Shown here one piece after another: positions 9,362-24,748 of a stretch of DNA of 64,000 bases; position 1 is the first letter of the stretch; each line of letters starts with the position of its first letter. The position numbers and the translations under genes were made by a program. Below the pieces are notes generated by a model that was not told where the DNA came from, did no database searches, and worked only from the letters and a program-made list of their open reading frames with translations. The stretch is from Stappia taiwanensis (GTDB lineage Bacteria; Pseudomonadota; Alphaproteobacteria; Rhizobiales; Stappiaceae), in NCBI RefSeq assembly GCF_014635285.1, contig NZ_BMCR01000006.1:124001-188000 (forward strand), in the 5' to 3' direction.

Positions 9362-9601
9362 CTCGGCAGCTATGCTGCGACGTTGATAACAAACCCCGGC
9401 GAAAAATCAATTTTCAATCCGCCGGTCGCGCCCGCTTTCCTCCGATCCCGGATGGGCAAGCAGCGCCGGCGGGGTGTGTCGTCGCGGCTGCGGAGTGCTC
9501 GCAGTGGTCTTGCCGAAGACGGCGCGTCACGCGATAGTTGCCGCCCGTCTTGGCGCAGCCCCTCGCGCCATTTCCGCACGCGTCCCGAACCGGATCCCGC
9601 C

Positions 9602-10441
9602 ATGAGAGCTTTTCCCCGCGCCGTCCTTGTCTTGCTGATCGGTCTGTCGGGGGCGGCCGCGATGACGTCCGCGGTGCGCGCCAGGACCCTGTGCACGGTG
9701 ATTGCCGACGCAGGCGATGGCCGCATCCTGCTGCAAGAGGGCGAGGGGTGCGGGGCGCGGGTGACGCCGGCCTCGACCTTCAAGATCCCGCTCAGCCTGA
9801 TGGGCTTCGATTCCGGCTTCCTTGAAGATGAGACGGTGCCAAAGCTTCCCTATCGCAAGGGCTATGTCGCCTGGGGCGGCAAGGCCTGGACCCAGCCGAC
9901 CGACCCGGCCCGCTGGATGCGCTATTCGGTCGTTTGGTTCTCGCAGCAGATCACAGGATTTCTCGGCGCCGAGCGGCTGCATGATTATGCCGCCGCGTTT
10001 GGTTATGGCAACGCGGACCTTTCCGGCGATCCGGGCAAGGGCAACGGGCTGGAGCGGTCCTGGATCGCGTCCTCGCTGAAGATTTCGCCGCTGGAGCAGG
10101 TTGCCTTTCTGGGCAAGCTGGTCAATCGGCGGCTTCCGGTCTCCGCCCAGGCGATGGAGATGACCGGGCGGATCGTTCAGGCTGCCGAACCGGGCGATGG
10201 CTGGATGCTCAAGGGCAAGACTGGCGGCGCCTATCCGCGCCGGAAGGACGGCAGCTTCGACCGGGCGCGCGGTTGGGGCTGGTATGTGGGCTGGGCTGAA
10301 AAGGACGGGCGGACACTGGTGTTCGCCCGGCTGGCTCAGGATGAAACGCGGCAGAAGGGCTCGCCCGGCATACGCGCGCGCAAGGCCCTGCTGGCGAATT
10401 GGCCGGCGCTGGCGGCACGGGCGCTGGCGCCGGGGCGCTAA
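9602..10441 (+). CDS. Class D (OXA-type) serine beta-lactamase
   Basis: 279-residue periplasmic beta-lactam hydrolase. A signal peptide covers about residues 1-27 (hydrophobic run VLVLLIGLSGAAA, cleavage likely around ARA). The class D motifs are all present in order. STFK is at 58-61, with S58 as nucleophile and K61 as the lysine usually carbamylated. SVV is at 109-111, YGN at 135-137 and KTG at 206-208. The ATG at 9602 is chosen because it puts the signal peptide at the N-terminus; the frame is open 219 bases further upstream without typical coding content. No mobile element or resistance neighbour is visible, so it appears to be a resident chromosomal gene. It is convergent with the TetR gene. 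The substrate range cannot be told from sequence. Confidence 0.93.
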   Translation: MRAFPRAVLVLLIGLSGAAAMTSAVRARTLCTVIADAGDGRILLQEGEGCGARVTPASTFKIPLSLMGFDSGFLEDETVPKLPYRKGYVAWGGKAWTQPTDPARWMRYSVVWFSQQITGFLGAERLHDYAAAFGYGNADLSGDPGKGNGLERSWIASSLKISPLEQVAFLGKLVNRRLPVSAQAMEMTGRIVQAAEPGDGWMLKGKTGGAYPRRKDGSFDRARGWGWYVGWAEKDGRTLVFARLAQDETRQKGSPGIRARKALLANWPALAARALAPGR

Positions 10442-10464: not shown

Positions 10465-11175
10465 CTATCGGTGCGGCCGGGCCGGGGCGCGAAAGCCCGC
10501 TTCGGCGAAGGAGACGATGCGCTCCAGCACCGGTTCATACTGGGAAATGTCGCAAATCCCCTCGGAGATATGCTCCAGCCGCTGCAGATCGGTGATGGTG
10601 TAATGGAGGGTGCCGAGGGTGAAATGCAGGCGCCAGTGGATCTCCTCGGCGCTCAGTTCCGGCAGAACCTTTTGCAGGTAGGGGATGAAGCGGCGCAGAT
10701 GGCCGACGTCCCGGTAGAACAGGTCGTAGAGCGGCGAGGCGCGGTCGACCTGGCAGCGGATCAGAAACTGAATGAAGAGGCCGCGCCCGCCCGGGTCGAA
10801 GGACCAGCGGATGCCGGGGGCGAGCAGGGCGGTCAGCACCTCGCGCAGTGGCACGATGCCGGTTTCCGAGCGCGCCTCTGCCTCTTGCAGAAGCTGGGCC
10901 CGTTCGCGATTGAGATCCCGCGCCCGGCGCAGGAACACCGCCTTGAACAGCCCCTCCTTGCTGCCGAAGTGATAATTGACCGCCGCCAGCGCCACATTGG
11001 CCTCGGTGGTGATCTCCCTGAGGGACACGGAGGCGAAGCTGCGGCGGGCGAACAGGCTTTCGGCGACCTCGATGATGCGGGTGCGGGTCTCGGCGGCGCG
11101 CAGCTGACCACTGTCCTGCCGCCGAGGCTCGTCATCGAAGGCGATCGCCTCGGTCCATTCGGGCTCTTTCGTCAT
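10465..11175 (-). CDS. TetR-family transcriptional regulator of the acyl-CoA island
   Basis: 236-residue regulator. The N-terminal helix-turn-helix spans about 30-75: RTRIIEVAESLFARRSFASV then LREITTEANVALAAVNYHFGSKEGLF, the typical TetR recognition helix. The C-terminal ligand domain follows. The start at 11175 is one base from the stop of the upstream acyl-CoA ligase on the same strand, so the two are translationally coupled. Within the island it is the obvious local regulator. Its ligand is probably an acyl-CoA, as for many TetR proteins in fatty-acid-type operons. The palindromes at 13676 and 13794 are candidate operators. Confidence 0.92.
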   Translation of the reverse strand: MTKEPEWTEAIAFDDEPRRQDSGQLRAAETRTRIIEVAESLFARRSFASVSLREITTEANVALAAVNYHFGSKEGLFKAVFLRRARDLNRERAQLLQEAEARSETGIVPLREVLTALLAPGIRWSFDPGGRGLFIQFLIRCQVDRASPLYDLFYRDVGHLRRFIPYLQKVLPELSAEEIHWRLHFTLGTLHYTITDLQRLEHISEGICDISQYEPVLERIVSFAEAGFRAPARPHR

Positions 11176-11176
11176 C

Positions 11177-12862
11177 TCAGGTTCTTTTCCCTTCAAAGAC
11201 CCTGGCCTTTTCGGCCAGCGGGGCCTTGAGCACCTTGCCGTTCGGGTTGCGCGGCAGGGGCTCGGCGCCCACCAGATAGAAATCCGGCTGCTTGTAGTCG
11301 GCCAGGGTCGCGGCCGCATGGCGGCGCAGCGCGGCCTCGTCCGTCTCGCCGGGCTGGCAGGCGACGAAGACGCAGACCCGCTCGCCCATCACCGGATCGG
11401 CCACCGGCACCGCCGCGCATTCCACCACGCCCTCAAGCGCCACCAGTGCGTTTTCCACCTCGGCGCTGAAAACCTTGTAGCCGCCCTTGTTGATCATGTC
11501 CTTCTTGCGATCGTGGATATAGAGGTAGCCCTCCGCGTCCATGCTGACAACATCGCCGGTGCGCCAGTATCCGTCGATGAAGGCGCGGGCGGTCTGCTCC
11601 GGATCCTCCCAGTAGCCGGGCACGACCATCGGGCCGCGCACCCACAATTCTCCGCTTTGCCCGCGCGGCACTTCCCTGCCGGCGTCGTCCATCACCACCG
11701 CCTCGGCGCATTGCACCAGAAGGCCGACGCTGGCCGGCCGGTCGCGGCTGGCAAAGGCCGGCATGATCGACACCGGCGAGGTGGTTTCCGTCGCGCCATA
11801 GGCGTTGATCAGCCGCAGGTCCGGCAGCACTTCGCCGAGGCGCTGCACGGTGGCTGGCGGCATGATGCCGCCGCCGAAGATGCCGGTGCGCCAGGCGTCG
11901 AAGGCGCCGGCATCGAAATCGGCATGCATCAGGATCAGCTGGTAGATCGAGGGCACGAAGACGGTGAAGGTGATCGCCTCGCGCTTCATCACCTCCAGCA
12001 CCTCGGCGGTGCGGTAGTCGGGCAGGATCACCGTGGCGCCGGCGACCGACAGCATGTTGGTGTAAAGCGCCATGAAGCCGGAAATATGCGCGCCGGGAAT
12101 GGCCAGCAGGCCGCGCTGGCCCGGTTTCAGGTCGATGGCATAGGCGTATTGCAGGGCGGAATGGACAATGTTGATGTTGGCGATCCGCGCGCCCTTGGGC
12201 TTGCCGGTCGTGCCGGAGGTGTAGAACAGGAAGATGGTGTCATCTTCATCGCCAACCGGCGGGGGAGGTGTGTCGTCGGCCGCGAGCAATTCGGCGAAAG
12301 CGGTCATGCCGGCGGGGGCAGCCTCGGTGGTCTCGCCATTGCCGGCCACCCAGATGTGGCGCAAGGAGGGGCACTCGGCGGCCGGCGGGACACGGGGCAG
12401 GATGTCTTTGCCGGTGATCAGCGCGGCGGCCTGACAGTGGTTGAGGATGTAGCGGGTTTCCGGTGCGCTCATCTTGATGCTCATGGGCACGGCGATCGCC
12501 CCCATGCGGACAGCGCCCATGATGGCGAGAAAGAAGGGAATGCCGTTGCCGAGCATGATGCCGACCCGCTCGCCGGGGGCAATGCCGGCGGCGGTGAGCC
12601 CGTTGGCGACCCGGCTGACGGCCGCGTCGAATTCCCCGTAGCTCAGGCGCTCCTCGCCGCAGACCAGCGCCTCGTTGTCACCATGGTCGCGGGCGGCCTT
12701 GCGCAACAGATCGTCGAACCGCGCCGGACGGCGGTCGAGGCAGGTAAACAGCCGGTGGCCGAAATGACACTCCCGGCGGGTGGTGTTGACCGTTTCGGGA
12801 ACGACGAAGCGCTCACCGGCAATTGCCGGAGCGTAGGGCTCTGTTTTCTGGGTGCTGGACAT
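11177..12862 (-). CDS. Acyl-CoA ligase (AMP-dependent synthetase)
   Basis: 561-residue ANL-superfamily enzyme that adenylates a carboxylic acid and transfers it to CoA. The P-loop-like motif YTSGTTGKPKG is at 214-224. NAYGATETTSPV (A5), YWRTGDVV (A7) and the C-terminal hinge DRKKDMINKGGYKVFSAEVE (A8) follow, and the terminal catalytic lysine lies in NPNGKVLK (A10). No peroxisomal or membrane signal is seen. It is followed by the TetR gene and preceded by an SDR on the same strand. The island context (kinase plus acyl-CoA dehydrogenase plus thiolase) suggests a short or medium, possibly 4-substituted acid. This could correspond to LvaE of the levulinate pathway, but that is inference. Confidence 0.93.
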   Translation of the reverse strand: MSSTQKTEPYAPAIAGERFVVPETVNTTRRECHFGHRLFTCLDRRPARFDDLLRKAARDHGDNEALVCGEERLSYGEFDAAVSRVANGLTAAGIAPGERVGIMLGNGIPFFLAIMGAVRMGAIAVPMSIKMSAPETRYILNHCQAAALITGKDILPRVPPAAECPSLRHIWVAGNGETTEAAPAGMTAFAELLAADDTPPPPVGDEDDTIFLFYTSGTTGKPKGARIANINIVHSALQYAYAIDLKPGQRGLLAIPGAHISGFMALYTNMLSVAGATVILPDYRTAEVLEVMKREAITFTVFVPSIYQLILMHADFDAGAFDAWRTGIFGGGIMPPATVQRLGEVLPDLRLINAYGATETTSPVSIMPAFASRDRPASVGLLVQCAEAVVMDDAGREVPRGQSGELWVRGPMVVPGYWEDPEQTARAFIDGYWRTGDVVSMDAEGYLYIHDRKKDMINKGGYKVFSAEVENALVALEGVVECAAVPVADPVMGERVCVFVACQPGETDEAALRRHAAATLADYKQPDFYLVGAEPLPRNPNGKVLKAPLAEKARVFEGKRT

Positions 12863-12907
12863 GTCGGTCTTCTCCTCCCTTGCGACCTTGCGACCTTGCG
12901 GCCCGGA

Positions 12908-13690
12908 TCAGCGCGGCGGCAGGCGAATGCCGCCGTCGAGCCGGATCACTTCGCCGTTGAGCAGGTGATTTTCGATGATCGCCATCACCAGGCCGGCGAA
13001 TTCCGCCGGTGTGCCGAGCCGGTCGGGGAAGGGCGGGCGCAGGGCGGTGACCACATCGCGGGACCGGTCCGGCATGCCGTGCACCATCGGCGTTGAAAAC
13101 ACGCCGGGGGCGATGGCCATGACGCGGATGCCGTATTTGCCCAGCTCCCGGGCAAGTGGCAGGGTCATGGCGGCAACACCGCCCTTGGAGGCAGAATAGG
13201 CGGCCTGGCCGACCATGCCGTCGAAGGCGGCGACCGAGCTGGTGTTGACGATCACGCCGCGCTCACCGTCCGCATCCGGCTCGGCCTCCTGCATCTGCCG
13301 GGCGGCGAGGCGGATGAAGTTGAAACTGCCGATCAGATTGACCTCGAGAACCTTGCGGAATTCGTCGAGCGGCATGGGGCCGTCCGGCCGCAAGGTGGCA
13401 CCGGGCGCGGCAATGCCGGCGCAGTTGACGAGGACGCGCGGGCTTCCCCAGCGCGCCGCATGGTCGGCGAACAGCCGCTCCGCGGTCTCGGGGTCTGCGA
13501 CATCGCAGGCGGCGGTTTCGATGCCCTCATGGGGCAGCGCGGCGCGCAGCGCCTCCGCATCGAGATCGACGGCGGTGACCCGGTAGCCCGCCTGATGCAG
13601 CTTGAGGGCGGTCGCCTGGCCGAGCCCCGATGCCGCGCCGGTGACGATGGCCGATGCCCCATCTGCTGAAAAACTGAATGATCGTTCCAT
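12908..13690 (-). CDS. SDR dehydrogenase, 3-hydroxyacyl-CoA dehydrogenase type II-like
   Basis: 260-residue short-chain dehydrogenase. The cofactor motif TGAASGLG is near residues 17-24. The usual NNAG is NCAG here. The catalytic Ser/Tyr/Lys set is visible in NTSSVAAF and AYSASKGG. The C-terminus FPDRLGTPAEFAGLVMAIIE...LNGEVIRLDGGIR strongly resembles the HSD17B10/type II 3-hydroxyacyl-CoA dehydrogenase subgroup. The expected reaction is NAD-dependent oxidation of a 3-hydroxyacyl-CoA to the 3-ketoacyl-CoA, feeding the thiolase on the other arm. It is divergent from the importer operon, and a candidate operator overlaps its first codons. Confidence 0.9.
   Translation of the reverse strand: MERSFSFSADGASAIVTGAASGLGQATALKLHQAGYRVTAVDLDAEALRAALPHEGIETAACDVADPETAERLFADHAARWGSPRVLVNCAGIAAPGATLRPDGPMPLDEFRKVLEVNLIGSFNFIRLAARQMQEAEPDADGERGVIVNTSSVAAFDGMVGQAAYSASKGGVAAMTLPLARELGKYGIRVMAIAPGVFSTPMVHGMPDRSRDVVTALRPPFPDRLGTPAEFAGLVMAIIENHLLNGEVIRLDGGIRLPPR
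13676..13687. promoter_or_regulatory. Candidate TetR operator (imperfect palindrome)
   Basis: GAATGATCGTTC, one mismatch from the dyad GAACG-N2-CGTTC. It overlaps codons 1-5 of the minus-strand SDR gene. It matches the perfect copy at 13794. Confidence 0.4.
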
Positions 13691-13793
13691 TTATTCCTCC
13701 AGAAAAATGCCAATCGCGTTCTTGTTCAGCGAGATGTCTGGCAATTTCGGATCATTTATTGCAGGGAATGACGCGCCTCTCAAGAATGAACTT

Positions 13794-13805
13794 GAACGGT
13801 CGTTC
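13794..13805. promoter_or_regulatory. Candidate TetR operator (perfect palindrome)
   Basis: GAACGGTCGTTC is a perfect dyad, GAACG-N2-CGTTC, placed in the divergent control region 41 bases before the importer operon start. This architecture is common for TetR regulators of acyl-CoA catabolism. A related copy lies at 13676. The assignment to the TetR gene at 10465 is inference. Confidence 0.5.
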
Positions 13806-13846
13806 TAAATTTGATAGCGAGGAATGGCTGTGATTGGGAGGAGATC

Positions 13847-15112
13847 ATGAAGCATTCGGTATTTTGGGCGGCACTCGCCGTCAGTGGACTGGCCGTCGGT
13901 GGATTGGCGATGAGTGGTCTGGCCGTGGGGGCGGCGCAGGCGGAAAGTATTCGCATCGGCCATATCGACCCGTTTTCGGGCACGTTTTCCAATGTGGGCG
14001 TCGTCAACGGCAAACATGTGCAGTTTGGCGCCGATCTGGTGAACGAGGCCGGCGGCGTTCTTGGCGGCAAGACCTTCGAAGTGGTGCGCTTCGACAACAA
14101 GGCGAGCGCCCAGGAGACGGTGATCGCCTTTCAGGAGGCGCTCGATCAGGGTATCCGCATCATCACCCAGGCCACCAGCTCGGGCATCGCGCTGGCGCTG
14201 GCCGATGCGGTCAACAAGCACAACCGGCGCAATCCGGACGATCCGGTGCTCTATCTCAACTACGGTTCGGCGGACCCGTCGCTGACCCGCGACAAGTGCA
14301 ATTTCTACATGTTCCGCTTCGAGGCCCATTCGGGCATGAAGCAGGCCGGTCTGACCGATCTGATCGCCGCCGACAAGGACATCAAGAAGGTCTACATCAT
14401 CGGTCAGGACTATGGCCACGGCCATGAGGTCAGCCGCTACACCAAGGAGATGCTGGCGGAAAAGCGCCCCGATATCGAGATCGTCGGCGATGAGTTCCAC
14501 CCCTTTGGCAAGGTCAAGGACTTCACCCCCTATGTGGCCAAGATCAAGGCCGCCGGCGCCGATGCGGTGGTGACCGGCAACTTCGGCGCCGACCTGACGC
14601 TTTTGATCAAGGCGGCCAACAGCGCCGGCCTCGATGCCAAGTTCTTCACCCAGTATTCGGGCACCTTCGGCACGCCGACGGCGATTGGCGCGGCCGGTGT
14701 CGGCCGGGTCTACGATGCCGCGCCCTGGCATCCGGACGTCCCGGTGGAGCAGGACAACGCGGCGGCGGGCCAACTGGTCTCCGGTTTTCAGGAGAAATAT
14801 GGCGAGGATCTCTACTACGTGCAGATCCTGGTGCAGATGCAGATGCTGGCCGAGGCCATCGAGGCGGCCGGCTCGACCGACCCCAAGGCGGTGGCCGGTG
14901 CCCTGTCCGGGGCCGCTTTCGATGGTCCCACCGGCAAGATGACCATGCGCGCCTCCGATCACCAGCTGTTCCACCCGCTGTTCATGTCGGTCTTTACCGG
15001 TGAAGGGATCACCAACGACGCCGAAGGGACGGGCCTTGGCTGGAAGACGGTCCTGACGGTGAACGGCGATCAGCTTTCCGACGATTCCACCTGTGAGGTG
15101 AAGCGCCCCTAG
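13847..15112 (+). CDS. Branched-chain/aromatic-acid-type ABC transporter substrate-binding protein
   Basis: Periplasmic binding protein of the type I LivK-like fold, 421 residues. A signal peptide covers about residues 1-31, with a repetitive hydrophobic core SGLAVGGLAMSGLAVG ending AQA. The mature protein starts ESIRIGHIDPFSGTFSNVG, typical of this family. The start at 13847 has a strong GGGAGGAG site; an in-frame ATG 36 bases upstream lacks one. It heads the operon livH-M-G-F, thiolase, SDR, acyl-CoA dehydrogenase and kinase. The cargo is therefore likely a carboxylic acid that the downstream enzymes degrade, rather than leucine. Cargo is inference. Confidence 0.92.
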   Translation: MKHSVFWAALAVSGLAVGGLAMSGLAVGAAQAESIRIGHIDPFSGTFSNVGVVNGKHVQFGADLVNEAGGVLGGKTFEVVRFDNKASAQETVIAFQEALDQGIRIITQATSSGIALALADAVNKHNRRNPDDPVLYLNYGSADPSLTRDKCNFYMFRFEAHSGMKQAGLTDLIAADKDIKKVYIIGQDYGHGHEVSRYTKEMLAEKRPDIEIVGDEFHPFGKVKDFTPYVAKIKAAGADAVVTGNFGADLTLLIKAANSAGLDAKFFTQYSGTFGTPTAIGAAGVGRVYDAAPWHPDVPVEQDNAAAGQLVSGFQEKYGEDLYYVQILVQMQMLAEAIEAAGSTDPKAVAGALSGAAFDGPTGKMTMRASDHQLFHPLFMSVFTGEGITNDAEGTGLGWKTVLTVNGDQLSDDSTCEVKRP

Positions 15113-15199
15113 GTGCCCGTTTCACCGATCTGACTGGAATTCGCGGGTTGCGTCCCTCTTGAAAAGGGGAAGCAACCCGCCCTTGGGGAGGCTTTGCGG

Positions 15200-16150
15200 G
15201 TGGATACTTTCGCCTTTGCCGTGGTCAACGGCCTGCTCTACGGCATGTTGCTATTCATGCTGGCCAGCGGCTTGACGCTGATCTTCAGCCTGATGGGCGT
15301 GCTCAACTTCGCCCATGCCAGTTTCTTCATGCTGGGCGCCTATTTCGCCTATCAACTGAGCAGCATCGGCAATTTCTGGATGGGGCTGGTGCTGGCGCCG
15401 CTTCTGGTCGGGCTGCTCGGCGCCACCGTCGAGCGCTACGGCCTGCGGGTGGTGCACCGGCATGGCCATGTGGCCGAGCTTCTGTTCACCTTCGGTCTTG
15501 CCTATCTGATCGAGGAGTTGGTCCGGCTTGTCTGGGGCCGTCAGCCGGTGCCCTATCGCATCCCGGAGGTGCTTGACTTTCCGCTGTTTTCCATTGGCGG
15601 CATCGACTATTCCGCCTATCGCGCCTTCATGTTCGCCATCGCCGTTCTGATGTTTCTCGGCCTCCTGGCGCTGCTGAAGCGCACCCGGGTCGGCCTGATG
15701 GTGCAGGCGGCGCTGTCCCATCCGGACGTGTTGTGGGCGCTCGGGCACAATGTGCCGCGCCTGTTCATGCTGGTGTTCGGCGGCGGCGTGGCGCTGGCCG
15801 GTCTCGCCGGGGTGATTGGCGGCAATTATCTCGTCACCGAGCCGGGCATGGCCCATCAGATGGGGACGATCCTGTTCGTGATCGTCGTCTTCGGCGGGCT
15901 CGGCTCGCTGCTCGGCGCCTTCCTCGCCTCGATCCTCATCGGCATCCTGCAGACGTTGATGGTCGCCTTCGACGGCACCTTGACCGATCTGGTGGTGAGC
16001 CTTGGCGCCGCCGCGCCGCAGGCGACCGGGCCGTTCCGTGAAATCTGGACGATCACTCCGGCCAATCTTGCGCCGGTCCTTCCCTATCTCCTGCTCGTGG
16101 TGCTCCTGATCGTGCGGCCCCGGGGGCTTCTGGGGACGCGCGAAACATGA
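15200..16150 (+). CDS. livH: ABC transporter permease, LivH type
   Basis: Inner-membrane permease of about 316 residues with multiple hydrophobic segments. The family signature region LIFSLMGVLNFAHASFFMLGAY lies near the N-terminus, and the C-terminus ends in RPRGLLGTRET. The start is taken as GTG at 15200, because the GGGGAG site at 15185-15190 is correctly spaced for it and too close to the TTG at 15194. The stop overlaps the next start by ATGA, so it is coupled to livM. It forms the transmembrane pore with LivM. Confidence 0.92.
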   Translation: MDTFAFAVVNGLLYGMLLFMLASGLTLIFSLMGVLNFAHASFFMLGAYFAYQLSSIGNFWMGLVLAPLLVGLLGATVERYGLRVVHRHGHVAELLFTFGLAYLIEELVRLVWGRQPVPYRIPEVLDFPLFSIGGIDYSAYRAFMFAIAVLMFLGLLALLKRTRVGLMVQAALSHPDVLWALGHNVPRLFMLVFGGGVALAGLAGVIGGNYLVTEPGMAHQMGTILFVIVVFGGLGSLLGAFLASILIGILQTLMVAFDGTLTDLVVSLGAAAPQATGPFREIWTITPANLAPVLPYLLLVVLLIVRPRGLLGTRET

Positions 16151-17397
16151 CCAGATCCGTCTCTTTCCTGCTCTTAGGCCTTCTCGCCCTCAGCGCGGCG
16201 CTGGCGTTGCCGCTGGTCTCGGACAGCCGTTTTCTCACCCTGTTCCTGACCCAGCTCGCGGTGATGGTGACCTTCGCCATGTCCTACAATGTGCTTCTGG
16301 GACAGACCGGGCTCCTGTCCTTCGGCCATGCGGTCTATTTCGGCGGCGGCGTCTTTGCCGCGCTCTATCTGATCACGGCGATCGGCGGCGGTGCGCTGGC
16401 ACTGCCCCTGGAATTCATACCGCTTGGCGGCGCGCTCGCGGGGCTGGCGATGGCCGCCGTCTTGGGGCTCGTCTCCGTGCGCCGGGCCGGCACCACCTTC
16501 GCCATGATCTCGCTGGGCATGGCTGAGCTGATCACCGCCGCCGCCATGGTGTTTCCAAGCGTCTTTGGCGGCGAGCAAGGGGTCTCCACCGATCGGATGG
16601 TGGATGTCACCCTCACCGGTCTGGGCTACGGCCGGCCCTCGGAGATCTATCTGCTGGTGCTGGTCTGGGCGCTGGTCAGCGTCGCCCTGATGGTGTTCCT
16701 GTCGCGCAGCCCGCTTGGCCGGATGGCGAATGCGGTGCGGGACAATCCGCAGCGGGTGGAGTTTCTCGGCTACGATCCCTACTGGATCCGCTTCCTGCAA
16801 TTCTGCATCGCCGGCACCTTCGCCGGGCTTGCCGGCAGCCTGTTCGCGCTCACCTTCGAGATCGCCAATGCGGAGGTATTCGGGCTGCGCACCTCGGCCA
16901 ATGTGCTGATCGCCACCTATCTCGGCGGCATCACCTATGTGCTGGGGCCGGTGGTCGGTGCCTTCGTGGTGCTGCTCCTGGAGCTCAACCTGGCGCGGAT
17001 CACCGATGCCTGGCTGTTCTATTACGGTCTTCTGTTCCTGGCGATCATCCTGTTCGCGCCGCGCGGGCTGACCGGGATCCTGGCCGAACTGCCCGGGGCA
17101 CTGCGCCGCCACGGTGCGGCGGGGTGCCTGCGCCGGGCGCTGGTCTGGGGGCCGGCGGTGCTGTCCGGGCTGGTCGGCGGGGTGATGCTGGTCGAGCTGA
17201 GCTATCACCTGTCCAACAGCTTCGACCCAAGCGATCCGCTGCGCCTGTTCTGGCGCGATGTCGATGCCACGAACTGGGGCGTGTGGGCGCTGGCGCTGGG
17301 GGCCTGCGCCCTGTCGGCGGCGCTGGTCCTGCGGGCCCGGCGCGGGGGGCGGCGGCCTGAGGTGGTCGTCACGCCGCTGGTGGAGGAGGGCTCATGA
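16147..17397 (+). CDS. livM: ABC transporter permease, LivM type, with C-terminal extension
   Basis: Polytopic inner-membrane permease, 416 residues. The LivM core reads SYNVLLGQTGLLSFGHAVYF near the N-terminus and ANVLIATYLGGITYVLGPVVGAF later, closing with LFLAIILFAPRGLTGIL. After that usual end (about residue 315) there are about 100 further residues with two more hydrophobic segments (about 335-355 and 375-395) and a basic tail. This is longer than typical LivM proteins. It overlaps livH and livG by 4 bases each. Confidence 0.92.
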   Translation: MTRSVSFLLLGLLALSAALALPLVSDSRFLTLFLTQLAVMVTFAMSYNVLLGQTGLLSFGHAVYFGGGVFAALYLITAIGGGALALPLEFIPLGGALAGLAMAAVLGLVSVRRAGTTFAMISLGMAELITAAAMVFPSVFGGEQGVSTDRMVDVTLTGLGYGRPSEIYLLVLVWALVSVALMVFLSRSPLGRMANAVRDNPQRVEFLGYDPYWIRFLQFCIAGTFAGLAGSLFALTFEIANAEVFGLRTSANVLIATYLGGITYVLGPVVGAFVVLLLELNLARITDAWLFYYGLLFLAIILFAPRGLTGILAELPGALRRHGAAGCLRRALVWGPAVLSGLVGGVMLVELSYHLSNSFDPSDPLRLFWRDVDATNWGVWALALGACALSAALVLRARRGGRRPEVVVTPLVEEGS

Positions 17398-18152
17398 TGA
17401 CCGCTTCCGGGCCCGCGCTTTCCATTCGCGATCTTCACAAGGATTTCGGCGCCGCCCAGATCATTCGCGGCATCTCGCTCGACGTGCGCGAGGGCAGTTT
17501 CCATGCGGTGATCGGGCCGAATGGCGCCGGCAAGTCCACCTTCTTCAACCTGATCTCGGGACGGTTTGCCCCGACCTCCGGAAAGATCCTGCTCGGCGAC
17601 ACGCAGATCTCGGGGATGCGGCCCTACCGGATCAACCGCCTTGGTCTCTCGCGCTCCTTCCAGATCACCAACATCTTCAACGAGATGAGCGTGTTCGAGA
17701 ACATCCGCTGCGCGCTGATGTGGCCGGGCCGGGCGGGCTACTGCTTCTGGCGGCGGGCCTCCGGATATCGTCGGATCGGCGCTGAGGCGGAGCGGCTGAT
17801 CGAGGAGATCGGCCTGTCGGCGCGGGCGGGCGAAAAGGCCGGCAATCTGTCTTATGCGGAGCAGCGGGCGCTTGAGGTCGGCATGACCATTGCTGGTGAT
17901 GCCCGGGTGCTTTTGTTCGATGAGCCCACCGCCGGGATGAACCACAATGAGGTGGAGCAGTTCTCCGGCTTCCTGCGCAAGGTGGCGGTGGGGCGGACGG
18001 TGATGATGGTGGAGCATGACATGAACGTGGTGTTCAGCCTGGCCGACCGGGTGTCGGTGCTGGTCTACGGCCAGATCATCGCCACCGGCACGCCGGAGGA
18101 GATCCGCCAGGATCCGGCGGTGCGCGAAGCCTATCTCGGAGCGGAGGCATGA
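17394..18152 (+). CDS. livG: ABC transporter ATPase, LivG type
   Basis: 252-residue cytoplasmic ATPase. Walker A GPNGAGKST is near 41-49. The signature region is LSYAEQRALEVGM, the LivG variant of LSGGQ. Walker B is VLLFDEPTAGM, followed by the switch histidine in MMVEHDMNVV. Two consecutive ATGs overlap the livM stop; either may serve as start. It pairs with LivF below the LivH-LivM pore. Confidence 0.94.
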   Translation: MMTASGPALSIRDLHKDFGAAQIIRGISLDVREGSFHAVIGPNGAGKSTFFNLISGRFAPTSGKILLGDTQISGMRPYRINRLGLSRSFQITNIFNEMSVFENIRCALMWPGRAGYCFWRRASGYRRIGAEAERLIEEIGLSARAGEKAGNLSYAEQRALEVGMTIAGDARVLLFDEPTAGMNHNEVEQFSGFLRKVAVGRTVMMVEHDMNVVFSLADRVSVLVYGQIIATGTPEEIRQDPAVREAYLGAEA

Positions 18153-18856
18153 GCGCGCCGATCCTCAGCCTGCGCGGCCTGCACGCCTTCTACGGCCTCA
18201 GCCACGTGCTGCACGGGGTCGATCTGGACGTGGGCGAGGGCGAGATCGTCGCGCTGCTCGGGCGCAATGGCGTCGGCCGTTCCACCCTGTGCAAGGCGGT
18301 GATGGCGATTGTCGAGCGTCAGGGCAGCATCCGGGTGCGGGGACGCGAGACCATCGGTCTTGAACCGCATCGGGTCGCCCGCCTCGGCCTCGGCTATGTG
18401 CCGGAGGAGCGGGCGGTGTTTCCCGGGCTGACGGTGGAGCAGAACCTTCTGCTTGGCCGGCATGGAGCGGCGAGTGCCCGCAGCTGGCAGCTTGAGGAGG
18501 TGTACGAGCTGTTCCCCTCGCTTCGGCGGCGCAGCGACACCCATGCGGAGGTGCTGTCCGGCGGCGAACAGCAGATGCTGTCGATCTGCCGGGCCTTGAT
18601 GAGCGGCCCGGAGCTGATGATCGTCGACGAGCCGACCGAGGGGCTGGCGCCGTTGATCGTCGAGCAGGTCGGCGATCTTCTGGCGGAAATTGCCCGGCGC
18701 GGGGTGGCGATCCTGCTGGTGGAGCAGAAGCTGACCATCGCGATGCGGATCGCCCATCGGGTCTATGTGATGGGCCATGGCCGCACGGTGTTTGAAGGGA
18801 GCCCCGACGAACTGCGCACTGACGAGGCAATCCGCAAGGCATGGCTGGAGGTTTGA
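18149..18856 (+). CDS. livF: ABC transporter ATPase, LivF type, with Walker A Lys-to-Arg
   Basis: 235-residue ATPase. The P-loop reads GRNGVGRST (38-46), with arginine 44 where lysine is canonical; the codon is CGT. The rest is intact: LSGGEQQMLSICRAL signature, LMIVDEPTEGLAP Walker B and LLVEQK. To my knowledge several LivF-family proteins carry this Arg substitution, so it does not by itself mean loss of function. It overlaps livG by ATGA, and the thiolase starts 4 bases after it, linking transport and catabolism in one transcript. Confidence 0.93.
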   Translation: MSAPILSLRGLHAFYGLSHVLHGVDLDVGEGEIVALLGRNGVGRSTLCKAVMAIVERQGSIRVRGRETIGLEPHRVARLGLGYVPEERAVFPGLTVEQNLLLGRHGAASARSWQLEEVYELFPSLRRRSDTHAEVLSGGEQQMLSICRALMSGPELMIVDEPTEGLAPLIVEQVGDLLAEIARRGVAILLVEQKLTIAMRIAHRVYVMGHGRTVFEGSPDELRTDEAIRKAWLEV

Positions 18857-18860
18857 CGAC

Positions 18861-20141
18861 ATGACATCGGCAACACGCGAACGGGACCATACCGAAGGGA
18901 CCGGGGCGGGCGGCGTCTATATTCTTGGCGGTGCCCAGACCGACTTTGCCCGCAACTGGGCGCGGGAGGGGCTCGGTATCGACGCCATGATGGCGGAGGC
19001 GCTGCATCAGGGGCTGGAGGCGACCGGCCTTGAGGCATCCGAGATCGAGACCGCGCATATCGGCAATTTCACCGGAGAATTGTTCTGCGGTCAGGGCCAG
19101 CTTGGCGGCATTTTCGCCTCGCTTCACCCGGACCTTTCCGGCGTGCCGACCAGCCGGCACGAGGCGGCCTGCGCCTCCGGCTCCATGGCCGTGCTCTCCG
19201 CCATGGCCGAGATCGAGGCCGGACGCTATGACCTTGCCTGTGTCCTTGGCGTTGAATACATGCGCAACGTGCCCGGCCAGACGGCGGCCGAACATCTTGG
19301 CGCCGCCGCCTGGCACGGGCGGGAATGGACCGACGCCCGCTACCTCTGGCCTGCCGCCTTTTCCGACTTGATCGACGCCTATTCGGAAAAATACGGCGAG
19401 GTCGACTATGCTCATCTCGGCGAGATCGCCCGGATCAACTACGAGAACGGCCGCCGCAATCCCTTGTCGCAGACGCGCAACTGGTCGTTCACGCCGGAGA
19501 GCTTCACCGAGCATGATGAGGCCAACCCGGTGATCGAGGGGCGGGTGCGGCGCAACGACTGTGGTCAGGTGACAGATGGCGCCGCCACCGTTTTCCTCGC
19601 CTCAGCCAAACGGGCGCGTGCCTATGCGGAAAAACGCGGGCTGAAGCTGTCGGATCTTGCCCGGATCGAGGGCTGGGGCCATCGCACCGCACCGATGCTT
19701 CTCTCCGATAAGTTGAGGGAGGGGCGGAATACGCGCTATGTTCTGCCTCAGGTGCAAAAGACCATCGCCGAGTGCTTCGGCCGGGCCGGGGTTGGCGATG
19801 TCTTCGCGCTCGACGCCATCGAGACCCACGACTGTTTCGCCATGACCGAATACGCCGCCATCGACAGTTTCGGCATCACCGCGCCCGGAGAGAGCTGGAA
19901 GGCGATCGAAGAGGGGGTGATCGCCGCCGATGGCCGGTTGCCGGTCAATCCCTCCGGCGGGCTGATCGGCCTCGGCCACCCGGTCGGGGCAACCGGCGTG
20001 CGGATGATGCTCGACGGCTACCGCCAGGTGACCGGTCGGGCCGGGGCCTGCCAGGTGGAGGGCGCGCGGCGGGTCGGGCTTCTCAATATCGGCGGATCGA
20101 CCACCACCATCGCCGCCTTCGTCGTGGGAGCTGCCATATGA
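18861..20141 (+). CDS. Thiolase (acetyl-CoA acyltransferase, SCP-x type)
   Basis: 426-residue thiolase that cleaves 3-ketoacyl-CoA with CoA. The nucleophilic cysteine is C104 in HEAACASGSMAV. The second active-site region reads ETHDCFAMTE, and the C-terminal His lies in GGLIGLGHPVGATG. The usual C-terminal second cysteine loop (CxG) is not evident, as in the SCP-x/lipid-transfer-type branch. The start at 18861 sits four bases after livF. The stop overlaps the next gene (ATGA). In the pathway proposed for this island it performs the last step, releasing acetyl- or propionyl-CoA. Confidence 0.92.
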   Translation: MTSATRERDHTEGTGAGGVYILGGAQTDFARNWAREGLGIDAMMAEALHQGLEATGLEASEIETAHIGNFTGELFCGQGQLGGIFASLHPDLSGVPTSRHEAACASGSMAVLSAMAEIEAGRYDLACVLGVEYMRNVPGQTAAEHLGAAAWHGREWTDARYLWPAAFSDLIDAYSEKYGEVDYAHLGEIARINYENGRRNPLSQTRNWSFTPESFTEHDEANPVIEGRVRRNDCGQVTDGAATVFLASAKRARAYAEKRGLKLSDLARIEGWGHRTAPMLLSDKLREGRNTRYVLPQVQKTIAECFGRAGVGDVFALDAIETHDCFAMTEYAAIDSFGITAPGESWKAIEEGVIAADGRLPVNPSGGLIGLGHPVGATGVRMMLDGYRQVTGRAGACQVEGARRVGLLNIGGSTTTIAAFVVGAAI

Positions 20142-20902
20142 CCTTGCTGGATCTGACCGGACGGGTTGCCGTCGTCACCGGAGCCTCCTCCGGCCTCGGG
20201 GCGCATTTCGCGCGCACGCTGGGGGAAGCAGGCGCGGCGGTGGCGCTGATCGCCCGCAATGGCGAGAAGCTGGAGGCGGTGGCCGCGCCCTTGCGCGCTG
20301 ACGGCATCGATGTGCGCTGCGCGCCGGCCGACATCACCGACCGGCCGGCGCTGGAGGCGGCGGTTGCCGGCATCGCCGACTGGCACGGGCGGATCGACGT
20401 CCTCGTTAACAACGCCGGCATCGCCCGCACCGAACGGTTTCTCGACATGTCGGAGGCGGACTGGGCGGCGGTGGTCGACACGGACCTGACCGGCCTGTGG
20501 CGCGCCGGGCAGATCGTCGCCCGGGTGATGGCCGCCGGCGAACGGGGCGGGTCGATCGTCAACATCGCCTCGATCCTCGGGCTCGCGGTACAGCCGACCC
20601 AGACCAACTACGCGGCGGCGAAGGCCGGGGTGTTGCACCTGACCCGGGCGATGGCCCGGGAGTTGGGGCGATACGGCATCCGCGTCAACGCCATCGCGCC
20701 GGGCTATTTCAAGACCGATATCAATTCCGATTTTTTCGACAGCGACGCCGGCCAGGCGCTGATCGGCAAGCTGTTCCCAAGGCGGCTGGGCCGGTTGAGC
20801 GAGCTCGACGGGCCGTTGCTGCTGCTCGCCTCGCAGGCGGGCAGTTTCATGACTGGAACCACTTTGACCGTCGATGGCGGTACATTACTTTCGGGGGTTT
20901 GA
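20138..20902 (+). CDS. SDR-family oxidoreductase
   Basis: 254-residue short-chain dehydrogenase/reductase. Cofactor motif TGASSGLG is at 15-22 and NNAG is present. Catalytic residues are in NIASILGL and YAAAKAG, and the C-terminus TGTTLTVDGGTLLSGV is classical. The true start is ATG 20138, overlapping the thiolase stop. It is the second SDR in the island. One may act on the 3-hydroxyacyl-CoA and this one on a 4-keto/4-hydroxy group (LvaD-like), but sequence alone cannot assign them. Confidence 0.92.
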   Translation: MTLLDLTGRVAVVTGASSGLGAHFARTLGEAGAAVALIARNGEKLEAVAAPLRADGIDVRCAPADITDRPALEAAVAGIADWHGRIDVLVNNAGIARTERFLDMSEADWAAVVDTDLTGLWRAGQIVARVMAAGERGGSIVNIASILGLAVQPTQTNYAAAKAGVLHLTRAMARELGRYGIRVNAIAPGYFKTDINSDFFDSDAGQALIGKLFPRRLGRLSELDGPLLLLASQAGSFMTGTTLTVDGGTLLSGV

Positions 20903-22114
20903 ATGAATTTCGTCCACAGCGCAAAGGTCGAGGACCTGAAGGCCAGGGTGTCCGCCTTCATGGAGGCGCATGTCATCCCGGCCGAGGCCGACTATCACCG
21001 CTTCGTCGACAGCGGCAAGGACCGCTGGGCGATCCCCCCGGTGATGGAGGAGCTGAAGGCGCGCGCCCGGGCGGAAGGTCTGTGGAACCTGTGGTGCCCC
21101 TATCCGGAGCATGGCGCCGGGCTCAACAATTGCGACTACGCGCCGCTGGCGGAGATCATGGGCCGCTCGATCATCGGCCCGGAGGTGTTCAACTGCAATG
21201 CGCCGGATACCGGCAACATGGAGGTGCTGATCAAATATGGCACCGAGGCGCAGAAAGCGAAATGGCTGACGCCGCTGCTCGCCGGCGAGATCCGCTCCGC
21301 CTTCTGCATGACCGAACCGGCGGTGGCCTCGTCGGACGCCACCAATGTGGAAGCCTCGATCCTGCGCGATGGCGATCACTACGTGATCAATGGCCGCAAG
21401 TGGTGGGCCACCGGCGCCCCCGATCCGCGCTGCCGCATCCTGATCGTCATGGGCAAGAGCGACCCGGCGGCGGAACGGCACAGACAGCAGTCGATGATCC
21501 TGGTGCCGTTCGACACGCCGGGGGTGACATTGGTGCGCCCGCTCAATGTGTTTGGCGCCGATGACGCGCCGCACGGGCATGCGGAGATCCTGTTCGACAA
21601 TGTCCGGGTGCCGGCGGAGAACCTGCTGCTCGGCGAGGGGCGGGGCTTCGAGATCGCGCAAGGCCGGCTCGGGCCGGGACGCATTCACCATTGCATGCGG
21701 CTGATCGGCGCCGCCCAGCGGGCGCTGGAGCTGATGTGCGACCGGGTGTCGGCACGCCGGGCCTTCGGCAAGCCGCTCGCCGATCAGGGGGTGGTGCGGC
21801 AGCAAATCGCCCTGTCCCTGTGCGAGATCGAGCAGGCCCGCCTGCTGGCATTGGCGGCGGCGGACAAGATGGACCGGCTCGGCAACAAGGACGCACGCGA
21901 TCTGATCGGCATGGCCAAGGTGGTGATCCCGCAGATGGCACAGACGGTGATCGACCGGGCGATCCAGGTGCATGGGGCGGCGGGCGTGTCGCAGGACACC
22001 TTCCTCGCCGCGGCCTTTGCCTATGCCCGGACCATCCGCATCGCCGACGGTCCGGACGAGGTGCATCAGGATGCGCTGGCACGGCAGATGTTGAAGGCGC
22101 GGGCGGCCGCATGA
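20903..22114 (+). CDS. Acyl-CoA dehydrogenase (ACAD10/11-like)
   Basis: 403-residue flavoprotein of the acyl-CoA dehydrogenase fold. The FAD-contacting stretch [20 protein letters not shown] is around 135-154, followed by [11 protein letters not shown]. The C-terminal helical domain has [19 protein letters not shown] and [16 protein letters not shown]. These sequences resemble the dehydrogenase halves of ACAD10/ACAD11. It is immediately followed, with ATGA overlap, by an APH-type kinase that corresponds to the other half of ACAD10/11. In levulinate/4-hydroxyacid degradation the analogous enzyme LvaC removes the 4-phosphate and isomerises the acyl-CoA. That function here is inference. Confidence 0.92.
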
Positions 22115-23139
22115 GTGCGGTTCCCGGCGATGTCGCGGCCCTCGCGCCGCTCTTGGAAGAGCGGCTGCCGGCGCTCGGCCGCGGGGTGACCATCGCCCCG
22201 TTCGGCGGTGGTCAGTCCAACCCGACCTTCCTGGCGCTCGGTTCCGGCGGTGAGGCGGTGTTGCGGGTGCAGCCGGCCGGCAAGCGGCTGAAGGGGGCGC
22301 ATGCGGTCGACCGCGAATTTCGGGTGATGGCTGCGCTGCACGGCTCCCGCGTGCCGGTGCCGGAGATGCTGCTGAGCGGCGGCGAGGACGAATGGCTCGA
22401 CCGCCGTTTCATCGTCATGCAGCGGGTGGAGGGCGTTGTCTTCTGGGATCCGGCACTGCCGGACAAGACCCCGGCCGAGCGTGGCCGGGTCTATGACGCC
22501 ATGGTCACGGTGCTGGCGGATCTGCACGACGTCGACATCGCCTCCGTCGGGCTGTCCGACTATGGCCGGCCGGGCAATTATTTCGCCCGCCAGTTCGCCA
22601 CCTGGCAGCGCCAGTACCGGGCGAGCGAGACCGGCGAGAACCGGGACATGGAGCAGCTGATCGCCTGGCTGGACCGGCATCTGCCGGAGGATGACGGGAC
22701 GGTGAGCCTTGTTCATGGCGACTACCGGATCGACAACCTGATCTTCGATCCCGAGGTGTTGGCGATCCGCGCGGTGTTGGACTGGGAGTTGTCGACCCTG
22801 GGCCATCCCTTCGCTGATCTTGCCTATCAATGCATGCAGTGGCGCCTGCCCAACGACGGGGTGTTCAAGGGGCTCGGCGGCGTCGACCGGGAGGCGCTGG
22901 GCATTCCCGACGAGGCCGCCTATCTCGCCGCCTATTGCCGGCGGCGCGGGCTTGCGCGCATCGAGGGCTGGACCTTCCATCTGGCGTTTTCCTTCTTCCG
23001 GCTTGCCGCCATCCTCCAGGGCATCTATCGCCGCTATCTGGATGGCAATGCCGCCAACGCGGAGACCGCGCTGCGCTACGGCCAGACCGTGCCGGTGCTG
23101 ACGGCGCTGGCGATGGCGGAGGTGGAGCGTGGAGGATAG
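22111..23139 (+). CDS. APH-type phosphotransferase (ACAD10/11 or LvaA-like hydroxyacyl-CoA kinase)
   Basis: 342-residue kinase of the aminoglycoside-phosphotransferase fold. The nucleotide-binding region is [10 protein letters not shown]...AVLRVQP (31-55). The catalytic loop HGDYRIDN is at 202-209 and the metal-binding DWE at 224-226, followed by [12 protein letters not shown], a signature of the ACAD10/11-like branch. The true start is ATG 22111, overlapping the dehydrogenase stop. Antibiotic phosphorylation is unlikely given the operon. Known relatives (LvaA, the kinase domains of ACAD10/11) phosphorylate 4-hydroxyacyl-CoA so that the hydroxyl can be eliminated. It ends the operon. Confidence 0.9.
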
Positions 23140-23305
23140 CGCCCTTTCCCGCTACGGCTGCCGCCCCGAGCCCCTTTGCAAGCAAGACGCAGTATTGCTG
23201 TTAAGACTCATGGTCTAACTAGGGCCGACCTCGCGGCGTTTCCGTCCGTTCTGGCGACCGCCCGCGTGGGGTATGCGTCTACAAGCTGGGCTGATCGGGG
23301 GAGAA

Positions 23306-24748
23306 ATGGCGTTTATCGAAGGGGTGTTCGGGGTTATCGGCGACCTCACCTGGGGCTGGGCGCTGATCCCGCTGCTGGTGGTGTTCGGCGTCTTCATCAC
23401 GGTGCTGACCGGGTTCGTGCAGATCCGCTATTTCAAGCGCATGTTCCGGGTGCTGTCCTCGGAAAACCAGAGCGCCGATCCCAACGCGATCTCCGCCCGC
23501 GCGGCGCTGCTTGTGTCCGTCGGCGGTCGGGTCGGCGGCGGCAACATTGCCGGTGTGGCCGTGGCGATTACTCTCGGCGGACCGGGGGCGGTCTTCTGGA
23601 TGTGGGCGGTTGCCCTTGTCGGCATGGCGACCAGCCTGGTCGAATGCTCGCTGGCGCAGCTCTACAAGCGGCGCGAGCCCGATGGCGCCTTTCGCGGCGG
23701 TCCGGCCCGCTCGATCATTCATGGGCTTGGTCATGAGTACAAATGGCTGGCGGTGCTTTACGCGGTCTGCCTGATCGCCGCCTTTGGCCTCGGCTTCAAT
23801 GCCTTCCAGGGCAACACGGTGGCTGGCGCCGCCGAGGAGAGCCTGGGCATCGACCGTCTCTGGTCGGGCGTGGTGTTGACCATTATTGCCGGCTTCATCG
23901 TCTTCGGCGGCATTCATCGCATCGCCAAGGCCGCCGATGTGGTGGTGCCGGTGATGGCCGTCGGCTACCTGCTGATGGCGGTGGTGGTGATCCTTCTCAA
24001 CGTGAGCGAGCTGCCCGGCGTGCTGGCCTCGATCGTTCTCAATGCCTTCGGCTTCGAGCAGGCGGTGGGCGGCGGCATGGGCGCGGCGCTGGCGCAGGGG
24101 CTGCGCCGGGGGCTGTTCTCCAACGAGGCCGGTCTCGGCTCAGCGCCCAATGTGGCGGCGACGGCGGATGTGCGTCATCCCATCAGCCAGGGCATCACCC
24201 AGTCGTTCTCCGTGTTCATCGACACGATCCTGATCTGCAGCTGCACCGCCTTCGTCATCCTGCTCGGCGATGTCTACCAGCCCGGGGCGGAGGCCGTGGA
24301 CGGGGTGGTGCTGACCCAGCAGTCGCTGGCGGAACATCTGGGCGACTGGACCCAGTATTTCCTGACGTTCATCCTGCTGCTCTTCGCCTTCAGCTCGATC
24401 ATCTACAACTACTATCTCGGCGAGAACGCGCTGACGGTGATCACCGAACATCCGATGGCGCTGAACGGCTTCCGGCTGGTCGTCATGGGTATCGTCTTCG
24501 TCGGCGCGGTGGCGCCGGGAGCGACCGCCGTGTTCTTCTTCTCCGATCCGCTGATGGGCATCCTGGCGGTGGTCAATCTGGTGGTCCTGATGATGCTGTT
24601 ACCCACCTGCCTGCGGATCCTGCAGGACTTCCGGGCGCAGCTCAAGGCCGGCGTCGCCCGGCCGCTGCTCAACCCGGACGACTTCCCCGACCTCGATCTC
24701 GACCGCACCGCCTGGACCGGCGTCAACCCGGACCGGCAGACGGCCTGA
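23306..24748 (+). CDS. Sodium/alanine or glycine symporter (AGCS family)
   Basis: 480-residue polytopic inner-membrane transporter. Family motifs are visible: VGGGNIAGVAVAITLGGPGAVFWMW near the N-terminus, FSNEAGLGSAPNVAATADV in the middle, and FSSIIYNYYLGENA later. The start is ATG 23306 with GGGGGA just upstream rather than an in-frame ATG 33 bases earlier. It imports alanine or glycine with sodium. It stands alone, 166 bases after the kinase, and is convergent with the DUF3788 gene. A hairpin lies between them. Confidence 0.93.
   Translation: MAFIEGVFGVIGDLTWGWALIPLLVVFGVFITVLTGFVQIRYFKRMFRVLSSENQSADPNAISARAALLVSVGGRVGGGNIAGVAVAITLGGPGAVFWMWAVALVGMATSLVECSLAQLYKRREPDGAFRGGPARSIIHGLGHEYKWLAVLYAVCLIAAFGLGFNAFQGNTVAGAAEESLGIDRLWSGVVLTIIAGFIVFGGIHRIAKAADVVVPVMAVGYLLMAVVVILLNVSELPGVLASIVLNAFGFEQAVGGGMGAALAQGLRRGLFSNEAGLGSAPNVAATADVRHPISQGITQSFSVFIDTILICSCTAFVILLGDVYQPGAEAVDGVVLTQQSLAEHLGDWTQYFLTFILLLFAFSSIIYNYYLGENALTVITEHPMALNGFRLVVMGIVFVGAVAPGATAVFFFSDPLMGILAVVNLVVLMMLLPTCLRILQDFRAQLKAGVARPLLNPDDFPDLDLDRTAWTGVNPDRQTA

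Follow-up and report, generated by a model that had tools for sequence, protein, structure and literature searches.

Removal of a 4-hydroxyl group from an acyl-CoA by a kinase acting together with an acyl-CoA dehydrogenase (ACAD) is described for the bacterial lva operon and for two mammalian proteins. In the lva operon, these enzymes accompany a ligase and a short-chain dehydrogenase/reductase (SDR), and serve the catabolism of a 4-keto/4-hydroxy acid (PMC6692424, PMC9399607). Mammalian ACAD10 and ACAD11 phosphorylate 4-hydroxyacyl-CoA and then eliminate the phosphate without an added electron acceptor, by a proposed internal flavin chemistry; their products are 2-enoyl-CoA and some 3-hydroxyacyl-CoA, the latter possibly made, according to the authors, by a contaminating hydratase (PMC11342911; activity of homologues is also reported in PMC12440821). 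Bacterial orthologues that are closer to ACAD10 than those of Pseudomonas putida consist of a separate kinase and dehydrogenase that replace the ACAD10 domains in vitro, and the main text describing them does not mention lvaB (PMC11342911). Here, we analyze a 64,000-nucleotide stretch of Stappia taiwanensis DNA (contig NZ_BMCR01000006.1, positions 124,001 to 188,000 of the forward strand; “the window”), in which positions 10465-23139 hold an island of 12 genes that includes a kinase and a dehydrogenase of this kind. We estimate a probability of about 0.78 that the island is a regulon dedicated to the catabolism of a 4-keto or 4-hydroxy acid.

The open reading frame list and family searches define an island with two arms, one on each strand. 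The leftward arm encodes a TetR-family regulator, an acyl-CoA ligase and a first SDR (SDR1), and the rightward arm encodes a Liv-type importer (LivK-H-M-G-F), a thiolase, a second SDR (SDR2), the dehydrogenase and the kinase; all 12 genes lie where an earlier note, made from the letters of the window, had placed them. We searched 61 genomes with the dehydrogenase as query and, separately, drew the best 80 of at least 582 relatives from a wider genome collection. Another species of the genus (G010; 12 genes, 94-100% identity, same chromosomal surroundings) keeps these genes in the same order, and so does the best of the 80 loci, from Roseovarius sp. ZX-A-9 (12 genes, 68-86% identity, with the TetR gene partial where the fetched stretch ends), which places the island beyond a chance arrangement. 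Four-base ATGA overlaps occur at five junctions: LivH/LivM, LivM/LivG, LivG/LivF, thiolase/SDR2, and dehydrogenase/kinase (22111-22114, as the earlier note had it). The end of SDR2 directly adjoins the start of the dehydrogenase with zero gap (20902/20903), and 81 bases separate LivK from LivH. These overlaps had been said to couple the enzyme genes to the importer; the five overlaps are real, but the LivF/thiolase junction itself is a 4-base gap (18856/18861). The widest gap in the island spans 153 bases (13691-13843), leaving no room for an LvaB-like gene, whose absence had been noted correctly.

This layout departs from the lva operon in its importer, regulator and last enzymes. The lva importer is LvaF, a symporter related to ActP (PMC6692424), and that of the island is a Liv ABC importer; the lva regulator is the sigma-54-dependent LvaR, against a TetR regulator here, in a comparison that covers the island itself. 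Unlike lva as published, the island has its own 3-hydroxyacyl-CoA dehydrogenase and thiolase, and no lvaB beside the kinase. The contrast that was first drawn from the missing lvaB and the Liv importer is overstated, because lva has its own symporter and because the region analyzed in P. citronellolis also lacks lvaB. In the levulinate clusters of P. citronellolis LA18, the kinase, dehydrogenase and SDR homologues lie together, a histidine-phosphatase-family gene is present, and the other strand encodes the ligase and symporter; the published description reports no lvaB in the region it analyzed, and we saw no Liv importer in it (PMC6692424). On that description, the absence of LvaB from the island is not odd. 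Our comparison rests on published descriptions and identities rather than on the P. putida LvaA-E sequences. We found no lva-like neighborhood among 15 Pseudomonas-titled loci (L089, L097, L098, L100, L109, L112, L113, L117, L123, L127, L130, L132, L134, L140 and L144) and the second copies L163 and L164, in a search that drew on the best 80 relatives, five named genomes and 59 genomes from the genus of G061; the 15 loci also showed no kinase homologue in their fetched flanks. Of 59 genomes sampled from the genus of P. putida HAI-2, 57 encode an ACAD11-type dehydrogenase with 64-68% identity to that of the window.

The dehydrogenase (20903..22114, plus strand) matched 88 solved sequences, with scores of 471 bits for ACAD11 and 455 bits for 4hr3 against 138 bits for the next, placing it closer to ACAD10/11 than to ordinary ACADs. 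It is 56.3% identical to the ACAD11 domain (PDB 8v3u/8v3v; 396 columns), the same figure as the 56% published for LvaC and ACAD11 (PMC11342911). The ACAD11-type active site comprises R626, R631, H634, R637 and the base D753, an Asp that replaces the usual Glu, with R626, H634 and R637 placed around the phosphate (PMC12440821). Their counterparts in the island enzyme (R255, R260, H263, R266 and D382) are invariant in all 14 aligned rows. Besides this enzyme, the S. taiwanensis genome holds 22 further Acyl-CoA_dh_N matches; in the seven next best matches to the island dehydrogenase, which we aligned, the active-site residues are absent as a set (7/7), and the base position is Glu in five and Ala in two. 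The earlier note held that a canonical catalytic base would speak against its assignment, and the residue proves to be Asp, as in ACAD10/11. On this sequence evidence, we assign the dehydrogenase to the ACAD10/11/LvaC type and predict that it eliminates phosphate.

The kinase (22111..23139, plus strand) has the APH fold, and scores 316 bits against 3dxp and 231-235 bits against two ACAD11 chains. It shares 39.1% identity with the ACAD11 kinase domain (PDB 8v3u/8v3v; 322 columns); for LvaA, the published identity with the ACAD10/11 kinases is only 29% (PMC11342911). The motif HGDYRIDN retains the catalytic Asp and Asn, and we claim no equivalent of the published R86, for which no counterpart was matched in the alignment. 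To place the kinase in a tree, we searched 90 loci and combined 53 hits with the window sequence and two PDB stretches; the tree holds no antibiotic kinase and no LvaA. Hits needed at least 270 residues and a match no weaker than E 1e-15, and each locus contributed only its first hit. Read as unrooted, with a root for drawing only, the 56-row tree shows a split with 100/100 support: 37 rows hold the window kinase, ACAD11 and 3dxp, and 15 of the 19 other rows are from Bacillota or Acidobacteriota. A grouping with antibiotic kinases, which had been named as grounds for abandoning the assignment, is not what we find, as four such NCBIfam models score 20-47 bits against cut-offs of 205-450 (best APH(3'), 47 bits against 205). 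We conclude from the sequence comparisons that the kinase groups with the ACAD10/11 kinase domains, and predict that it is a 4-hydroxyacyl-CoA kinase. Scores, identities and the kinase tree thus support the view that the two genes are separate counterparts of the fused ACAD10/11. The dehydrogenase active-site residues of the mammalian proteins are kept; what is one fused protein in mammals is two genes in the island, and the HAD domain of ACAD10 is absent from the island. The likeness to the separate bacterial orthologues is drawn from their published description (PMC11342911).

Four other enzymes provide candidates for the flanking steps. The AMP-forming acyl-CoA ligase (11177..12862, minus strand) scores 278.9 bits with Pfam AMP-binding and 232.7 bits with its nearest solved relative, FadD13; it reaches no cut-off among the 25 NCBIfam models shown, so these matches assign it no chain-length class. 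SDR1 (12908..13690, minus strand) has as its best 16 solved matches enzymes mostly named as type-II or 3-hydroxyacyl-CoA dehydrogenases (155-250 bits, against 122 bits for the next SDR), and we classify it from these scores as a type-II 3-hydroxyacyl-CoA dehydrogenase of the HSD17B10 family. The 3-hydroxyacyl-CoA dehydrogenase expected from the earlier reading is therefore present, yet is itself an SDR, giving the island two SDRs. The thiolase (18861..20141, plus strand) is of the SCP-x type by NCBIfam and PDB matches, scoring 620 bits with NF004936 (PRK06289), above the cut-off of 375; its nearest solved relative is 4bi9 (169 bits), with the SCP2-thiolase 6hsj lower down (106 bits). We take the nearest solved thiolases to be trypanosomatid-type. 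SDR2 (20138..20902, plus strand) is FabG-like by Pfam and by its match to PDB 4iuy (207 bits), and is a candidate 4-ketoacyl-CoA reductase; it adjoins the dehydrogenase and kinase also in a third species of the genus (G001, L047) and in G002 (L213). In line with the earlier reading, the island supplies candidate enzyme classes for the whole path between free acid and thiolysis, save for a dedicated enoyl-CoA hydratase.

Together, these enzymes would cover nearly the whole route by which a free acid becomes acetyl-CoA. In the proposed pathway, the Liv-type importer would take up the acid and the ligase would form its CoA ester. SDR2 would then reduce a 4-keto to a 4-hydroxy group, or interconvert stereoisomers through the ketone. 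The kinase would phosphorylate the 4-hydroxyl of the acyl-CoA, and the dehydrogenase would eliminate the phosphate through internal redox chemistry of its flavin, yielding 2-enoyl-CoA. Hydration to 3-hydroxyacyl-CoA may be carried out partly by the dehydrogenase itself and otherwise by a hydratase encoded elsewhere, after which SDR1 would oxidize the 3-hydroxyacyl-CoA, and the SCP-x thiolase would release acetyl-CoA and a chain two carbons shorter. By analogy with published work on homologues, the kinase and elimination reactions are well supported; we only infer the reaction and direction of SDR2, the specificities of thiolase and ligase, the substrate, the importer ligand, and the function of the repressor.

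The importer genes all lie on the plus strand. The LivK-type periplasmic binding protein (13844..15112) scores 239.6 bits with Pfam Peripla_BP_6 and 172 bits with its nearest solved relative, 4xfk. Two permeases follow, of LivH type (15194..16150, with a TTG start as listed; NCBIfam UrtB 128.7 and LivH 57.2 bits, both below cut-off) and LivM type (16147..17397; Pfam BPD_transp_2, 105 bits). The ATPases are of LivG type (17394..18152; NCBIfam UrtD 215.9 and LivG 186.2 bits, both below cut-off) and, by Pfam ABC_tran (102.4 bits) and its position after LivG, LivF type (18149..18856). In eight of the 80 loci, the fetched flanks contain the complete LivHMGF set; we give this frequency no weight, since Liv operons are common and there is no background rate to set it against.

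The regulator (10465..11175, minus strand) combines the Pfam domains TetR_N and TetR_C_30; its best NCBIfam model is PsrA (122.8 bits, below the cut-off of 300), and it scores 88 bits against PDB 2fbq. Between the arms lies a palindrome, TTGAACGGTCGTTCTA (13792..13807, unstranded), that ends 36 bases before the LivK start. The palindrome recurs in the divergent region of G010 (L046) as TTGAACGACCGTTCGA and in that of Roseovarius (L066) as TTGAACGACCGTTCCA; in G001 (L047), it appears as TTGAACGATCGTTCAA between TetR and SDR2, ahead of the SDR2-dehydrogenase-kinase genes. It is thus present in the regulatory region of all four loci that have this TetR at 63% identity or more. We propose from this placement that the palindrome is perhaps the TetR operator, through which TetR would repress both arms. 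The exact sequence TTGAACGNNCGTTC occurs once in the 4.42 Mb S. taiwanensis genome; G001 and Roseovarius likewise have a single site apiece, and G010 has two. A second, imperfect palindrome (13674-13689) was dropped, as it lies in the first codons of SDR1 and is coding sequence.

Several observations weigh against the island being one dedicated regulon of this kind. When the exact palindrome is reversed as a control, G001, G010 and Roseovarius contain zero to two copies per genome; rarity is therefore a weak argument, and the case for the palindrome is its position in the four loci. With up to one mismatch, the S. taiwanensis genome gives 14 strand matches to the palindrome and 31 to its reversed control, and we therefore claim no regulon beyond the island; with up to two mismatches, the window holds five matches against 4.65 expected. 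The stretches of G002 and G006 that bear distant dehydrogenase-kinase units contain no GAACGNNCGTTC. The 12 island genes include no dedicated enoyl-CoA hydratase, and no ACAD11-type gene was detected near relatives of the thiolase in any of 10 stretches outside such islands. Finally, 4xfk was deposited as a putative amino-acid binding protein. We take it to be PA4913. In a thermal-shift assay, small amino acids elicit a response from PA4913 (PMC6829864).

The distribution of the genes points to a core and an accessory set. The nearest dehydrogenases among the 61 genomes belong to the same genus (G010, 98%; G001, 78%), and the gene is found at 78% identity or more in three of 14 genus genomes, the S. 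taiwanensis genome included. G001 has TetR divergent from SDR2, dehydrogenase and kinase (63, 67, 79 and 65% identity, respectively), and G002 has a distant SDR2-dehydrogenase-kinase unit (50, 40 and 41%). Because of these reduced units, the SDR2-dehydrogenase-kinase triad looks like the core, and the rest like an accessory set. Of the 80 loci, 33 have a kinase homologue (E 1e-8) no more than 3 kb from the dehydrogenase, and 44 have one somewhere in the fetched flanks. In the kinase tree, Roseovarius falls inside the group of the window and G010, with G001 of the same genus outside (95/84), and this placement, together with the patchy occurrence, suggests horizontal transfer. IspG, chosen as the housekeeping baseline, was not matched at E 1e-50 in the genome of Roseovarius, so the transfer idea stands on these two observations.

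The strongest alternative, though we give it less than an even chance, is that the island natively handles 4-hydroxy acids derived from gamma-lactones or oxylipins rather than 4-keto acids, with SDR2 acting as an epimerizing dehydrogenase that converts a poorly used stereoisomer into the form preferred by the kinase. The kinase part of ACAD10 favors R- over S-4-hydroxyhexanoyl-CoA, with an approximately fourfold difference in product (PMC11342911), and the presence of two SDRs in the island fits such a role. A simple 4-ketoacyl-CoA reductase like LvaD is an equally good reading of SDR2, and none of the 12 genes belongs to a lactonase family by NCBIfam or Pfam.

More doubtful is the idea that the importer, ligase, SDR1 and thiolase form a side-chain oxidation chassis for larger (branched, terpenoid or aromatic) acids, to which the triad was added to get past a 4-hydroxyl. 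SCP-x thiolases and HSD17B10-type SDRs are known for 2-methyl-branched substrates. The thiolase was found at E 1e-100 or better in three of 87 family genomes and eight of 385 class-drawn genomes, the S. taiwanensis genome being in both counts. In the 10 non-island stretches with this thiolase that we inspected (L168, L169, L170 and L180-L186), LivG and LivF homologues lie nearby in three (L170, L180 and L184), and a carotenoid-oxygenase (RPE65) family gene is present in four of nine (L168, L170, L184 and L186; L169 was outside this test), both of which favor such a chassis. Against it, seven of the 10 stretches have no LivG/LivF pair (L186 has a LivH homologue alone, and six have no Liv genes), the ACAD11-type gene is missing from all 10, and these thiolase clusters do not themselves point to a particular substrate. 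In two Cupriavidus necator plasmid stretches (L168 and L169, 29 kb), homologues of the thiolase (53%), SDR2 (52%) and kinase (46%) occur together, with no ACAD11-type dehydrogenase found. The RPE65-family gene of S. taiwanensis itself belongs to another cluster, one that carries separate thiolase-like genes, and this also tells against a chassis of this kind. Overall, the thiolase contexts raise, without settling, the chance of a substrate bulkier than levulinate. In a bolder version, which we regard as slightly less likely still, the island would be a transferable, single-regulator module that joins an ACAD10/11-type triad to a Liv-importer/SCP-x-thiolase chassis, found elsewhere alongside carotenoid-oxygenase-family genes, and lets bacteria feed on larger 4-oxygenated (terpenoid, apocarotenoid or aryl) acids.

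A reading in which the importer is an amino-acid transporter that merely neighbors a detached 4-hydroxyacyl-CoA operon is rather improbable. The naming of the closest solved LivK relative as a putative amino-acid binder, the gap rather than overlap at the LivF/thiolase junction, and the fetched G001 stretch, which joins only TetR, SDR2, dehydrogenase and kinase, are in line with it. Gene order and strand, however, are kept in Roseovarius at 68-86% identity, and the palindrome that precedes SDR2 in G001 precedes LivK in the window, G010 and Roseovarius. A pairing of an ordinary fatty acyl-CoA dehydrogenase with a kinase of antibiotic or choline type is highly improbable and already contradicted by sequence: Pfam gives broad families only and APH(3') is the best NCBIfam kinase model, but its score is far below cut-off, ACAD11 and 3dxp score 231-316 bits, and the dehydrogenase has the Asp base and R/H/R set that its seven aligned paralogs lack as a set.

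Outside the island, positions 9383-10441 adjoin it and appear, as read from the translation, to encode a class D beta-lactamase or penicillin-binding-type protein; an 88% identical copy flanks the G010 island. Directly downstream, positions 23273-24748 encode a symporter, of sodium:alanine type as read from the translation, with matches at E 1e-120 or better in seven of 14 genus genomes, the S. taiwanensis genome included. Distant dehydrogenase-kinase pairs (40-42% identity) in G002 (L213, 4458-14765) and G006 (L065, 3563-8863) lie near a 72-73% relative of this symporter. RPE65-family genes with thiolases, some with a ligase and Liv importer, form recurrent clusters in several proteobacteria (L168, L170, L184 and L186), and the RPE65-family cluster of S. 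taiwanensis (L179, contig C4) has ligase-like and thiolase-like genes and an HxlR-like gene as read from the sequence.

Returning to the regulon for a 4-keto or 4-hydroxy acid, among the open-access papers listed we found none that describes such an island in its title or at the start of its abstract; the list did not include every match and subscription papers were mostly outside its scope, so this is weak evidence of absence. The island very probably represents known chemistry, the kinase and dehydrogenase of levulinate catabolism and ACAD10/11, in a new package with an importer, a regulator and the last steps to acetyl-CoA. The levulinate route would thereby gain a second form, whose regulation and import differ from those of the operon type described so far, and if the island is a module for larger acids, the ACAD10/11-type enzymes would gain substrates beyond 4-hydroxy fatty acids. 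In animals, work to define the physiological substrates of these enzymes is ongoing. A compact island that bundles import, regulation, activation, 4-hydroxyl removal and thiolysis would be convenient for finding a natural substrate, because its binding protein and TetR regulator can be screened for ligands.

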